Origin: Agromyces cavernae
GTDB taxonomy: Bacteria; Actinomycetota; Actinomycetes; Actinomycetales; Microbacteriaceae
Length of the DNA: 64,000 nucleotides
Assembly: GCF_021044935.1 (NCBI RefSeq)
Contig: NZ_JAJNMP010000003.1
Coordinates: 496,001-560,000, forward strand
Reading direction: 5' to 3'
Shown here: one piece after another, positions 49,622 to 53,078 of the stretch
How the letters are laid out: each line of letters opens with the position of its first letter
Numbering within the stretch: the stretch's first letter is position 1
Made by a program: the position numbers and the translations under genes
Notes under the pieces: generated by a model
What the model was told of the DNA's origin: nothing
The model's input: the letters and a program-made list of their open reading frames with translations, nothing else
Database searches by the model: none

Positions 49622-51295
49622 CTAGCGACCGACCTTGCCGAAGAGTCCCGCGATCGGCGCGAGCACCATCGGGCGGGCGGCGACCCACGCCGCCGCGATC
49701 ACGACGAGCGAGGCCACGAAGATCCAGAAGCCGAGCCAGCTGACGACGTCTTGCGCCGCATACATGTGATTGAGGTTGCGCAGCGCCCCGGTGAGGAAGA
49801 CCAGCGCGACGTGCACCACGATGAAGGCGACGAAGTAGAGCATCACCGGGAAGTGCACGGCGCGCGCCCACTCCACGGGATAGATGCGGTTCAGTGTCTT
49901 CGCGTTCTTCGGCCACAGCCCCGACATGCGCACACCGGTCACCGCGGCGAGCGGCGCCGCGATGAAGATCGTCACGAAGTACGCGAGCACCTGGAGGCTG
50001 TTGTAGTTCACCCAGCCGTTCTCGAGCGGCCAGTCCAGCGACACGTACTGCAGGGTCGCTGAGATCGCGTTCGGGATGTACTCCCAACTCGTCGGCACGA
50101 CCCGCATCCACTGCCCGGTCGCGAAGAGGAGCACGACGAAGACGATGCCGTTGACGAGCCAGAGGATGTCGAGCGACTGGTGGAACCACAGGTTCAGGCT
50201 GATCTTGCCCTGTCCGCCCTTCGACCACCGCGGCGTCCAGTAGGCGGCCGGTCGCTTCTCGGTGCGCACCTGCAACCCCGATCGGATGATGAGCACGATG
50301 AGGAACACGTTGAAGAAGTGCTGCCACCCGAGCCATGCCGGCAGCCCGACCGGCGCGCCCTCGGGCAGGTGCGTCTCGCCGGGATAGGTCGCGAGGAAGT
50401 CCTGCATAAAGCCGAGCGTGAGGAACCAGTTCGTCACGACCACCACGAACGTCGCCGCGAGCAGCAACCCGAACCCACCGATCACGGCCGAACCGAGCAG
50501 CTGGCCGAAGGTGTAGGCGCCGAATCGTCCGGGTTTGGGCGCGGGCGCCGGCGCCGGCCGAGGCCGCGGGGCCGGGCCCGCGGTGGCCGGGCGGGTCGCC
50601 GCCGGGCGGGCCGCCGCCGGGCGGGCGAGCGGGACGCGCTGGGGCGGCGCGGCAGGGACGGGGGCCACGGATGCCGCGACCGCGGCCTCCTCGACGAGCG
50701 GAGGCGTCACGGGCGCGGGCGGCACGGGCGCGGGCGCGACCCCTGTGACCGGCGCGGCTTCTGCGACGACCGCGCGGACCGGGGCGAAACCGGCCGCCGG
50801 CCATGCCTCGCCGCCCTTCACACGGGGAAGGCCTCGTCGGAGCGGACGTTCGGAGGTCGCGGCTCCGAGCGCCGTCGCGGCGGGGGCGACCGCCGGAACT
50901 GCGGCGGCAGCCACGCCCGCAGCCGAGGCTGCGGCGGCAACGGGCGCCTGTGGCGCGGGCGCAGCCGGGCTCGCGGCCGCAGGCGCGGGTGCCGCCGCGA
51001 CGGCGGGCGCGGCGGCCGGCCACGGCTCACCTCCGGGAACCCGGGGCAGTCCCCGCCGAACCGAACGCCCGGGCCCCATCGCCGCAGCGACGACGGACGG
51101 ACGCTCCGGGGCGGGCGCGGCAGCGACATCCGCAATATCGACGATCGGTTCCGGAACGGCAGCCACCGAACCACTCGCCGGGCTCTCGGCACGAGCCGCC
51201 ACGATCTCGATGGGCGCGTCACCCAGCGGCGGCCAGGCGTCGCCGCCGCGTTCGCGAGGCAGTCCCCTACGGAGGGTCGGCGGGTAGGTGGCCAC
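49622..51295 (-). CDS. Cytochrome b-like membrane protein with a triple RRGLPR..GGE.WP N-terminal repeat
   Basis: A 557-residue protein. Residues 1-255 are Ala/Pro-rich and disordered apart from three copies of RRGLPR(x)2GG(D/E)xWP at 8-22, 79-93 and 152-166, spaced by about 72 residues. The C-terminal half has five or six membrane helices resembling di-heme cytochrome b561/formate-dehydrogenase-gamma subunits. Candidate heme-ligand histidines are H326 (LGWQHFFNV), H372 (LWFHQSLD), H481 (ARAVHFPVM) and H495 (IVVHVALV). ATG 51295 is 3 nt after the etfA stop, so it is in one operon with etfBA. It may pass electrons between ETF and the quinone pool. This function is inferred from context only. 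Confidence 0.8.
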
Positions 51296-51298
51296 GGG

Positions 51299-52291
51299 TC
51301 AGCGCTTCCGTTCGGCGAGCGCGCTGATCAGCTGCGGCACGACGGTGAAGACGTCGCCGACGACACCGAAGTCGGCGACCTCGAAGATCGGCGCATCGGG
51401 GTCCTTGTTGACGGCGACGATGTTCTTGGCGGTCTGCATGCCCGCCTTGTGCTGGATCGCGCCAGAGATGCCGAGGGCGATGTAGAGCTGCGGCGACACC
51501 GAGACGCCGGTCTGGCCGACCTGGTGGTTCGCCGGGATGTAGCCGGCGTCGACCGCGGCGCGCGATGCACCGACGGCGGCGCCGAGGGCGTCGGCCAGCT
51601 CTTCGACGAGCGCGAACTTCTCAGCCGAGCCGAGACCGCGGCCGCCCGACACGACCCTCGTCGCCCCACGCAGCTCGGGCCGGCTGGAGGCCTCTTCGAT
51701 GGCTTCGACCGACTCGATGGTCGTAGCCTCCGCTCCCGAGGCCTGCAACTCGAGCGTCTCGAGAGCGATCGGCCGCGCCTCGGCACGCGATTCGATCGCG
51801 CCCTGGCGAACGGTGACGACCAAGGGGCCGAACGTCGCGGCGGATTCGAGGTTGTACGCCCCGCCGTACACGGAGTGCCGGGCGACGACGCCCTCGTCGT
51901 CGCGGGAGACGCCGATCGCGTCGACGGCGATCGGCGCGCTCGTGCGTGCGGCGAAGCGACCGGCGATGTCGCGGCCCTCGATCGAGTTCGAGATGAGCAC
52001 CGCGTCGGGCGCGACGGCGCCGGCTGCCGCGGCGAGCGCGTCGACCTGCGGCACGGTGAGCTGCGTCTGCACCGCATCGGTCTCGACGACGAGTGTGCGC
52101 TCGGCCCCGGCTGCCGCGGCCTGCTCGGCGAGCGCCTGCGCGTCACCTCGCCCTGGCGCCGTGACGGCGAGCGCCACCGGGGTTCCGATGAGCGCCGCGG
52201 CACCGAGAAGGCCTGTGGCGCTCTTCGCGAGCTCACCGGTCGGCGATGTCTCGAGCAGGACGAGGATCGCGTCTGCGGGGTAGTCGGTCAT
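51299..52291 (-). CDS. etfA: Electron transfer flavoprotein subunit alpha
   Basis: A 330-residue subunit. The C-terminal FAD domain has [42 protein letters not shown] and [23 protein letters not shown], the FAD-binding signature of EtfA. With EtfB it accepts electrons from acyl-CoA dehydrogenases and hands them to a membrane quinone reductase. It is 10 nt downstream of etfB and 3 nt upstream of the cytochrome b-like gene. A short internal stretch (about 175-210) is Glu/Ala-rich. Confidence 0.95.
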
Positions 52292-52301
52292 GTTCGTCCT
52301 C

Positions 52302-53078
52302 TCAGGCCAGCCGGTTCTCGATCAGGAACTCGGCGATCTTCGTGCCGCCGTCGCCCTCATCCGTGATCTTGACGCCCGCGGTACGCGGCGGCTTCTCGGC
52401 GATCGCCGTCATGATCGACGAGGCGACCGAGAGATCTTGCGGCTCGATGCCGAGATCGGCCGCGGTCAGCGTCTCGAACGGCTTCTTCTTCGCCGCCATG
52501 ATGCCCTTGAAATTGGGGAGGCGAGCGTCGGGCAGCGCCTCGGTGATCGAGATCACGGCCGGCAGCGGAGCGCTCACGCGCATGGCGCGGTCGTCGGTGC
52601 TGCGGGTGCCCGACACCGAGTCGGCGGTGATCTCGACCGACGAGAGTGCCGTTGCGTTGGGAACTTCGAGCAGTTCGGCGAGCATGGCGGCGAGGACGCC
52701 GCCGCTGCCATCGGTCGAGAGGTTGCCGGTGATGACGAGATCGAACCCCGTGCGCCGGATCGCGGCGGCGAGCGTGCGGGCCGTCAACCCGAGGTCGGCT
52801 CCGGCGAGTGCGGGGTCGGCGATGTGCACGGCGGATGCCGCTCCCATCGCCAGTCCCTTGCGGATCGTCGCCGCGGCGCTCTCGGGCGCCATCGACAGGA
52901 GGACGACCTCGACGCCGTCGGCAGAACCGGCGTGAGCGAGCGCCACTTCGAGGGCACGCTCGCTGATCTCGTCGAGCACGGACTCGCTCGCGGCGCGATC
53001 GGCGAGCCCCGTCTCGAGGTCGAGCTTGCGCTCCCCGTAGGTGTCGGGAACCTCTTTCACGAGGACGATGATCTTCAT
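52302..53078 (-). CDS. etfB: Electron transfer flavoprotein subunit beta
   Basis: A 258-residue subunit beginning [24 protein letters not shown]. It has the AMP-binding region [20 protein letters not shown], which includes the EtfB pattern D-G-x-G-x-V, and the C-terminal [16 protein letters not shown] recognition loop. It forms the ETF heterodimer with EtfA. The ATG at 53078 follows AAAGGA. It is the first gene of a three-gene unit (etfB, etfA, cytochrome b-like). Confidence 0.95.

Follow-up and report, generated by a model that had tools for sequence, protein, structure and literature searches.

The window analysed here is a stretch of 64,000 nt from Agromyces cavernae (contig NZ_JAJNMP010000003.1, positions 496,001 to 560,000 of the forward strand), whose genome has a size of about 4.07 Mb. 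On the minus strand it carries the genes for both subunits of an electron transfer flavoprotein (ETF) and, only three bases behind etfA, a gene for a predicted cytochrome b with a long N-terminal arm, the closest named relatives of which are found in Agromyces. A reading made from the sequence alone had described a membrane protein with four histidines 3 nt behind etfA and an acyl-CoA dehydrogenase upstream, and both coordinates and Pfam matches agree with this description. The features are as follows (positions within the window):

52302..53078, minus strand: etfB, electron transfer flavoprotein beta subunit, 258 aa (Pfam ETF, 7.4e-30)
51299..52291, minus strand: etfA, electron transfer flavoprotein alpha subunit, 330 aa (Pfam ETF_alpha, 1.5e-34)
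49622..51295, minus strand: predicted cytochrome b with six transmembrane helices and an N-terminal arm, 557 aa, GTG start (Pfam Ni_hydr_CYTB), candidate ETF:menaquinone oxidoreductase
50534..51295, minus strand: Ala/Pro-rich low-complexity arm, residues 1-254, predicted to be cytosolic (from composition and positive-inside loop charges)
51230..51271, minus strand: motif copy 1, residues 9-22
51017..51058, minus strand: motif copy 2, residues 80-93
50798..50839, minus strand: motif copy 3, residues 153-166
49676..50488, minus strand: membrane domain, about residues 270-540, six predicted helices, with H326, H372, H481, H495 and H510 in an outer loop
53174..54304, minus strand: acyl-CoA dehydrogenase (Pfam Acyl-CoA_dh_1, 8.1e-48), upstream on the same strand, probably the electron donor of the ETF

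The linkage between cytochrome and ETF was followed in 199 genomes drawn evenly from the window's family; EtfA was counted above the Pfam cut-off, and two weaker matches were dropped. EtfA was present in 55 of these genomes, with 67 genes in total, and for 63 of the 67 genes a cytochrome followed downstream on the same strand, its membrane domain no more than 1.4 kb away from the EtfA domain. A homologue of the cytochrome was found in all 55 ETF-positive genomes versus 41 of the 144 without ETF (Fisher p 4e-23, with no correction for phylogeny; since the genomes are related, this value overstates their independence). In a collection of named organisms EtfA lies just upstream on the same strand in 71 of 80 loci, these being the best 80 of at least 552 relatives and for this reason leaning towards the kin of the window; seven of the other nine loci start at a contig end, and a Salinibacterium metagenome-assembled genome and a second copy in Georgenia truly lack EtfA. 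Linked loci in this collection include Arthrobacter, Pseudarthrobacter, Glutamicibacter and Georgenia. Lack of co-conservation of the cytochrome with etfBA, which had been named beforehand as a result that would overturn the proposal, was thus not observed in either set.

The spacing of the genes is tight as well. The start of the cytochrome was set at the first in-frame start codon in a search beginning 60 nt ahead of the etfA stop. On this basis, 58 of the 65 junctions measured in the fetched loci fall between −4 and +25 nt, and 23 of them show the 4-nt overlap that is typical of coupled genes; the remaining seven include two with a gap of about 1 kb and three with a doubtful start call or frame. 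Among 67 fetched loci, most of which extend just 1-3 kb past the three genes, the cytochrome cluster is represented in 67, EtfA in 66, EtfB in 65, and the next genuine neighbour family in 16. The neighbours, named from their sequences, include a 3-hydroxyisobutyrate-dehydrogenase-like family (16 loci) and an enoyl-CoA-hydratase-like family (14 loci). Such neighbours suggest degradation and speak against a cytochrome that runs backwards, from menaquinol to ETF, to serve a reductive acyl-CoA or enoyl-CoA reaction. Cytochrome b proteins can work in either direction, and the acyl-CoA dehydrogenase and both ETF subunits do score on models of acryloyl-CoA reductase, albeit far below the cut-offs; organisms of this family are, however, generally aerobes, and we regard reverse flow as very improbable.

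The membrane domain of the window protein matches PF01292 (Ni_hydr_CYTB) with 6.2e-8 and 33.1 bits against a curated cut-off of 30.1, and 32 of 35 aligned members of the cytochrome family match this model at E <=0.001. Beyond this, Pfam gives only a sub-threshold DUF4405 match, and no flavin, iron-sulfur, PF05187, CCG or PF00174 domain in the protein. No PDB relative of the membrane domain was found by sequence with E <=1. All 105 aligned sequences have H326 and H372, and 104 have H481 and H495, the remaining row ending at a contig end. Of the 67 ETF-linked rows, 66 retain H510 and one has a gap; the residue is also present in 16 of 28 short relatives without ETF and in 8 of 10 long relatives. 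Averaged over 66 ETF-linked rows, loops 2 and 4 hold 7.1 and 4.8 Lys plus Arg residues, and loops 1, 3 and 5 about 1.1 to 1.2 each. Hydropathy and these loop charges suggest six helices with both termini in the cytosol, which would place the arm on the same side as the ETF. In the predicted topology H372 and H481 would be close to the cytosolic face of the membrane and H326 and H495 close to the outer one, a placement that suggests two stacked b hemes.

The domain of ETF:quinone oxidoreductase (ETF-QO), PF05187, gave no match in the whole window genome or in any of the 199 family genomes (FixC-type enzymes were not searched for), while 3 of 14 control genomes gave matches. This agrees with the statement of the sequence-only reading that the conventional enzyme is not encoded here, and the presence of a sufficient enzyme of this kind, the other result that would overturn the proposal, was not observed in these searches. 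A FixC-type dehydrogenase that lacks PF05187, encoded elsewhere and with the cytochrome as an accessory, is improbable in our view; it would leave unexplained why the cytochrome is present in 55 of 55 ETF-positive genomes, nearly always beside EtfA.

EtfD, which the sequence-only reading had recommended to look for, was sought through its CCG domain and through an EtfD signature, a motif derived from fetched sequences, and none was found by these two routes in the ETF-positive family genomes. CCG matches at E up to 0.001 occur in 15 of the 55 ETF-positive genomes and belong to 17 proteins, all of which were fetched and scanned: 15 are fusions with FAD-linked oxidases (one a fragment), and two, from the window genome (L061, C2:184090-184698) and from G251 (L218), have two CCG domains each and no hydrophobic helix. 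In the window genome all CCG matches at this threshold lie in one protein of 541 aa, for which a simple hydropathy scan detected no hydrophobic helix. The EtfD signature was absent from all 17 CCG loci of the family (16 from ETF-positive genomes) and from the window genome's own CCG protein, versus 49 of 50 loci from the class outside the family (45 of 46 genomes; 30 loci were the best-scoring and 20 were picked mostly for length). With a threshold of E 1e-6, 225 of 234 class genomes outside the family have a CCG match versus 1 of 12 inside, the latter being the soluble protein of the window genome. The window's family appears to have lost EtfD. G002, which belongs to another family of the same order, also has no such CCG matches; its cytochrome is armless and separated from etfBA by about 7 kb. 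A connection to the soluble CCG protein of the window genome was rejected, since this protein adjoins a FAD-linked oxidase and 40 of the 55 ETF-positive genomes have no CCG match at all.

The second conspicuous part of the protein is its arm, in which exact matches to RRGLPRxxGGxxWP begin at residues 9, 80 and 153. The steps of 71 and 73 residues confirm the three copies of RRGLPRxxGG(E/D)xWP at steps of about 72 residues that had been noticed in the sequence. From the arm's own composition about 1e-9 copies are expected, and the three copies are encoded by differing synonymous codons; both point to copies that are kept at the protein level rather than fresh duplications. In an alignment of 12 arms, chosen among motif-bearing ones of different lengths, 38 columns have identical residues in at least 11 of 12 sequences, and 32 of these lie inside the three 14-residue copies (33 if the Pro after copy 1 is counted; one more is the start Met, which was fixed by the script). 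A consensus of (L/V/I)RRGLPRxxGG(E/D)(P/A)WPP was obtained from 138 distinct instances. Because the search expression behind these instances itself fixed or restricted most positions of the consensus, matches to a motif profile are the fairer test. In the PDB the motif has just short and weak matches, for example to angiogenin and to a cadinene synthase. A search at the DNA level with a short degenerate pattern covering part of the motif was dropped, as it gave 77 and 76 matches on the two strands versus 65 and 53 for the reversed control. In three loci (L129, L133, L150) the arm motif lies in another frame or upstream of the called start, which may reflect start calls, sequencing errors or real frame changes.

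The motif profile, built from 19 instances and applied to the 199 family genomes at E up to 0.01, returned 89 matches. The best 76 (E no higher than 2.7e-4) are without exception located in the stretch from EtfA to the membrane domain of a cytochrome next to ETF; for G273, G294 and one copy in G423 the open frame reported for the motif differs in length from that of the cytochrome. Three matches with E 3.9e-4 to 1.4e-3 are located elsewhere, and ten with E 0.002 to 0.01 were excluded from this count (the one in G337 on an arm, nine not at any listed cytochrome). Among 246 genomes of the class, 20 strong matches are all within the window's family, and 19 weak ones (E 0.002 to 0.009) comprise one beside etfA that is cut at the contig end and 18 outside the family. 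The motif is nearly exclusive to ETF-adjacent cytochromes, and in the search of further genomes that had been proposed with the sequence-only reading all strong matches belonged to this cytochrome in the neighbourhood of etf genes.

Arm and motif are not needed for the pairing with ETF. Half of the sampled ETF-linked cytochromes (33 of 66) were scored as armless, and an overlap of 4 nt with etfA is frequent. We also compared ETF sequences for columns specific to armed operons; four per subunit were found and rejected as a hint of docking, since they are confounded by phylogeny and nearly always kept in four armless relatives inside the armed clade. The many armless forms and the fate of these columns would also fit a motif that binds not ETF but acyl-CoA dehydrogenase, another copy of the cytochrome or a lipid surface, and its basic residues would suit phospholipid. 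We consider a partner other than ETF rather unlikely, in view of the strong motif matches that occur only where the cytochrome adjoins etf. A plain attraction of charges is disfavoured by the Gly-Gly-x-x-Trp-Pro part, which is too specific. The analogy with EtfD set out below, and the reported co-immunoprecipitation of EtfD with EtfB in Mycobacterium tuberculosis (PMC8593149), likewise speak for ETF as the partner.

EtfD (Rv0338c/MSMEG_0690) is described as a heme b-containing membrane protein reported to pass electrons from ETF to menaquinone; it has five transmembrane helices, two [4Fe-4S] clusters and two CCG domains, and in the reported structure its tail is disordered, with conserved interspersed repeats noted and a contact with ETF predicted through the tail (PMC13083937). 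In our set from the class, the C-terminal tails of EtfD repeat GSLFD, APSWE, ADPWDE or KGLGIAxGAKRPG, depending on the lineage. Many copies of GGSLFD were seen in EtfD tails of one actinobacterial family (L330, L331, L333, L335, L338, L344, L353, L357 and L377, the last from the same genome as L330); other tails carry APSWE (L360), DPWDE (L343 and L376, one genome) or KGLGIAxGAKRPG (L363-L366). Repeats of any five-letter peptide containing an aromatic residue, Leu or Ile were then compared with 500 shuffles. Among the 20 EtfD loci picked mostly for length, ten tails exceed 150 residues, and seven of these ten surpass all 500 shuffles (four of the seven from one genus), while three do not. In the same test eight of nine cytochrome arms surpass all 500, L155 through a peptide other than the motif, and L157 does not clearly do so (23 of 500 shuffles as high). 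Repeat-bearing tails on two unrelated membrane proteins that would both accept electrons from ETF favour a role as a tether; homology among the peptides themselves is not demonstrable.

A quick tree of 103 membrane domains, in which 37 of 100 inner branches are weak, places forms fused to a molybdopterin domain outside. Its 66 ETF-linked rows comprise 33 armless, 31 motif-bearing and 2 armed rows without an in-frame motif. Armless cytochromes branch early and throughout the tree, and 30 of the 31 motif-bearing forms fall into a single supported group, whose 40 rows also include some armless and some ETF-free cytochromes. Of the 28 short forms without ETF, 19 form one clade. The simplest reading of this topology would be that linkage to ETF came first and the arm later, and that some copies were freed from ETF. 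Conserved neighbours of the 28 ETF-free short cytochromes were not detected, save for translation genes, which recur in a single group of at most six loci; in L185, L186, L191, L193, L194 and L221 such a cytochrome lies among elongation-factor-like and ribosomal-protein-like frames, as named from their sequences. Given the Oxidored_molyb domain of the fused relatives, a molybdenum enzyme may have been the source from which the cytochrome was recruited. These long fused relatives, and the stand-alone copies without ETF, are also what one would expect if the cytochrome were an unrelated redox protein, for example the anchor of a molybdenum enzyme, that was passively caught in the etf operon. Such passive co-location is quite improbable, as the linkage persists over many genera while the few observed neighbours change, and reaches Arthrobacter, Georgenia and others; moreover, it would leave the ETF-positive family genomes with neither ETF-QO nor EtfD.

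Taken together, these data support the view that the cytochrome is a membrane acceptor of ETF that replaces EtfD in this clade, and that the arm is a low-affinity tether; we assign this a probability of about 0.68. It is based on the computed linkage and co-occurrence, the absence of the two ETF dehydrogenases that were searched for, the invariance of the histidines and the near-exclusivity of the motif, and from these we infer heme content, quinone reduction, the direction of electron flow and the partner of the motif. The candidate electron conduit from ETF to the membrane proposed in the sequence-only reading is thus supported by the co-conservation and by the searches for ETF-QO and EtfD, neither of which was found in the ETF-positive family genomes. 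Acyl-CoA dehydrogenases would reduce ETF in the cytosol, and reduced ETF, assisted by the arm, would dock on the cytochrome from the cytosolic side. Electrons would then move from the inner to the outer heme and on to menaquinone, a direction suggested by the catabolic-looking neighbours. In a large sub-clade the repeated peptide of the presumably flexible arm would raise the local concentration of its partner at the membrane, most likely ETF and possibly an acyl-CoA dehydrogenase.

Several observations weigh against this interpretation. Four of the 67 EtfA genes in the family genomes have no following cytochrome: in one the cytochrome lies 312 nt away in opposite orientation, one is at a contig end, and two are in genomes with the cytochrome on another contig. 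In two of the 63 linked pairs (L177, L180) an open frame of 315-320 codons intervenes. Furthermore, 41 of the 96 cytochrome-positive family genomes have no EtfA above the cut-off, and the window genome itself has a second, armless and unlinked copy (L055, C3:740028-740891), so the protein family is not exclusive to ETF. The 18 weak motif matches outside the window's family in the class draw (L307-L323 among them) are more than the two or three expected. The cytochrome has no flavin or iron-sulfur domain, so that ETF would have to reduce heme directly, and the molybdopterin domain of the nearest fused relatives means that the ancestral partner may not have been a flavoprotein.

Oxidation of acyl-CoA by menaquinone is near break-even or uphill. 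Two hemes stacked in the membrane would allow menaquinone reduction to be driven by the proton-motive force, and a comparable use of the proton potential has been proposed for diheme succinate dehydrogenases (PMC7447783). In a wider and tentative proposal, against which we see the odds, the cytochrome would represent a third, iron-sulfur-free kind of ETF dehydrogenase that reduces menaquinone at the outer face, the slightly uphill transfer from acyl-CoA-reduced ETF being driven by the proton-motive force, with H510 as a proton or quinone ligand. Tethers with repeated motifs that catch ETF would have evolved independently on the cytochrome and, in several actinobacterial lineages, on EtfD, and would be general among bacterial membrane acceptors of ETF. 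The step driven by the proton-motive force would be the boldest and least tested part of this mechanism.

If the interpretation holds, it describes how Agromyces, Microbacterium and the rest of their family connect the oxidation of fatty acids and branched-chain amino acids to respiration, and it provides a non-homologous way to carry out a reaction on which mycobacterial beta-oxidation depends. The gene pair as such is also present in Arthrobacter and Georgenia. A peptide of 14 residues would become a concrete candidate for holding a soluble electron carrier at the membrane, and the motif would tie in with the repeats, so far unexplained, of EtfD's disordered tail. Among open-licence papers we found no title or beginning of an abstract that describes this cytochrome as a partner of ETF, or its motif, which is weak evidence of novelty.

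The proposed function can be compared with several known systems. Prokaryotic cytochrome b561 proteins and the cytochrome b subunits of Ni-hydrogenases (PF01292) are alike in the family match above the cut-off and in the four conserved histidines, but the partner of the window cytochrome by linkage is ETF, and part of its family has the additional N-terminal arm. Actinobacterial fusions of cytochrome b with a sulfite-oxidase-like molybdopterin domain (PF00174) share the same membrane domain (46% identity to L057 over 282 columns in a profile comparison). However, the fusions L057, L060 and L034 end in Oxidored_molyb, whereas the window cytochrome has no PF00174; the fusions lack the motif, and L057-L060 have no EtfA or EtfB match in the fetched 15-16 kb. 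With diheme succinate:menaquinone oxidoreductase it would share two hemes that carry electrons across the membrane to menaquinone with the help of the proton potential; the membrane protein is a different one, the donor would be ETF instead of succinate, and the heme content is predicted here. The reaction proposed would be the same as that of ETF-QO (ETFDH), which is a protein with flavin and a 4Fe-4S cluster. EtfD, whose related names include EMO and DUF224 protein, differs from the window cytochrome in its soluble iron-sulfur and CCG domains, in having five helices versus six predicted ones, and in that the arm is at the opposite end. Both would nevertheless take electrons from ETF to menaquinone, and several actinobacterial EtfDs, like the window cytochrome with its arm, have a long tail with a repeated short peptide.

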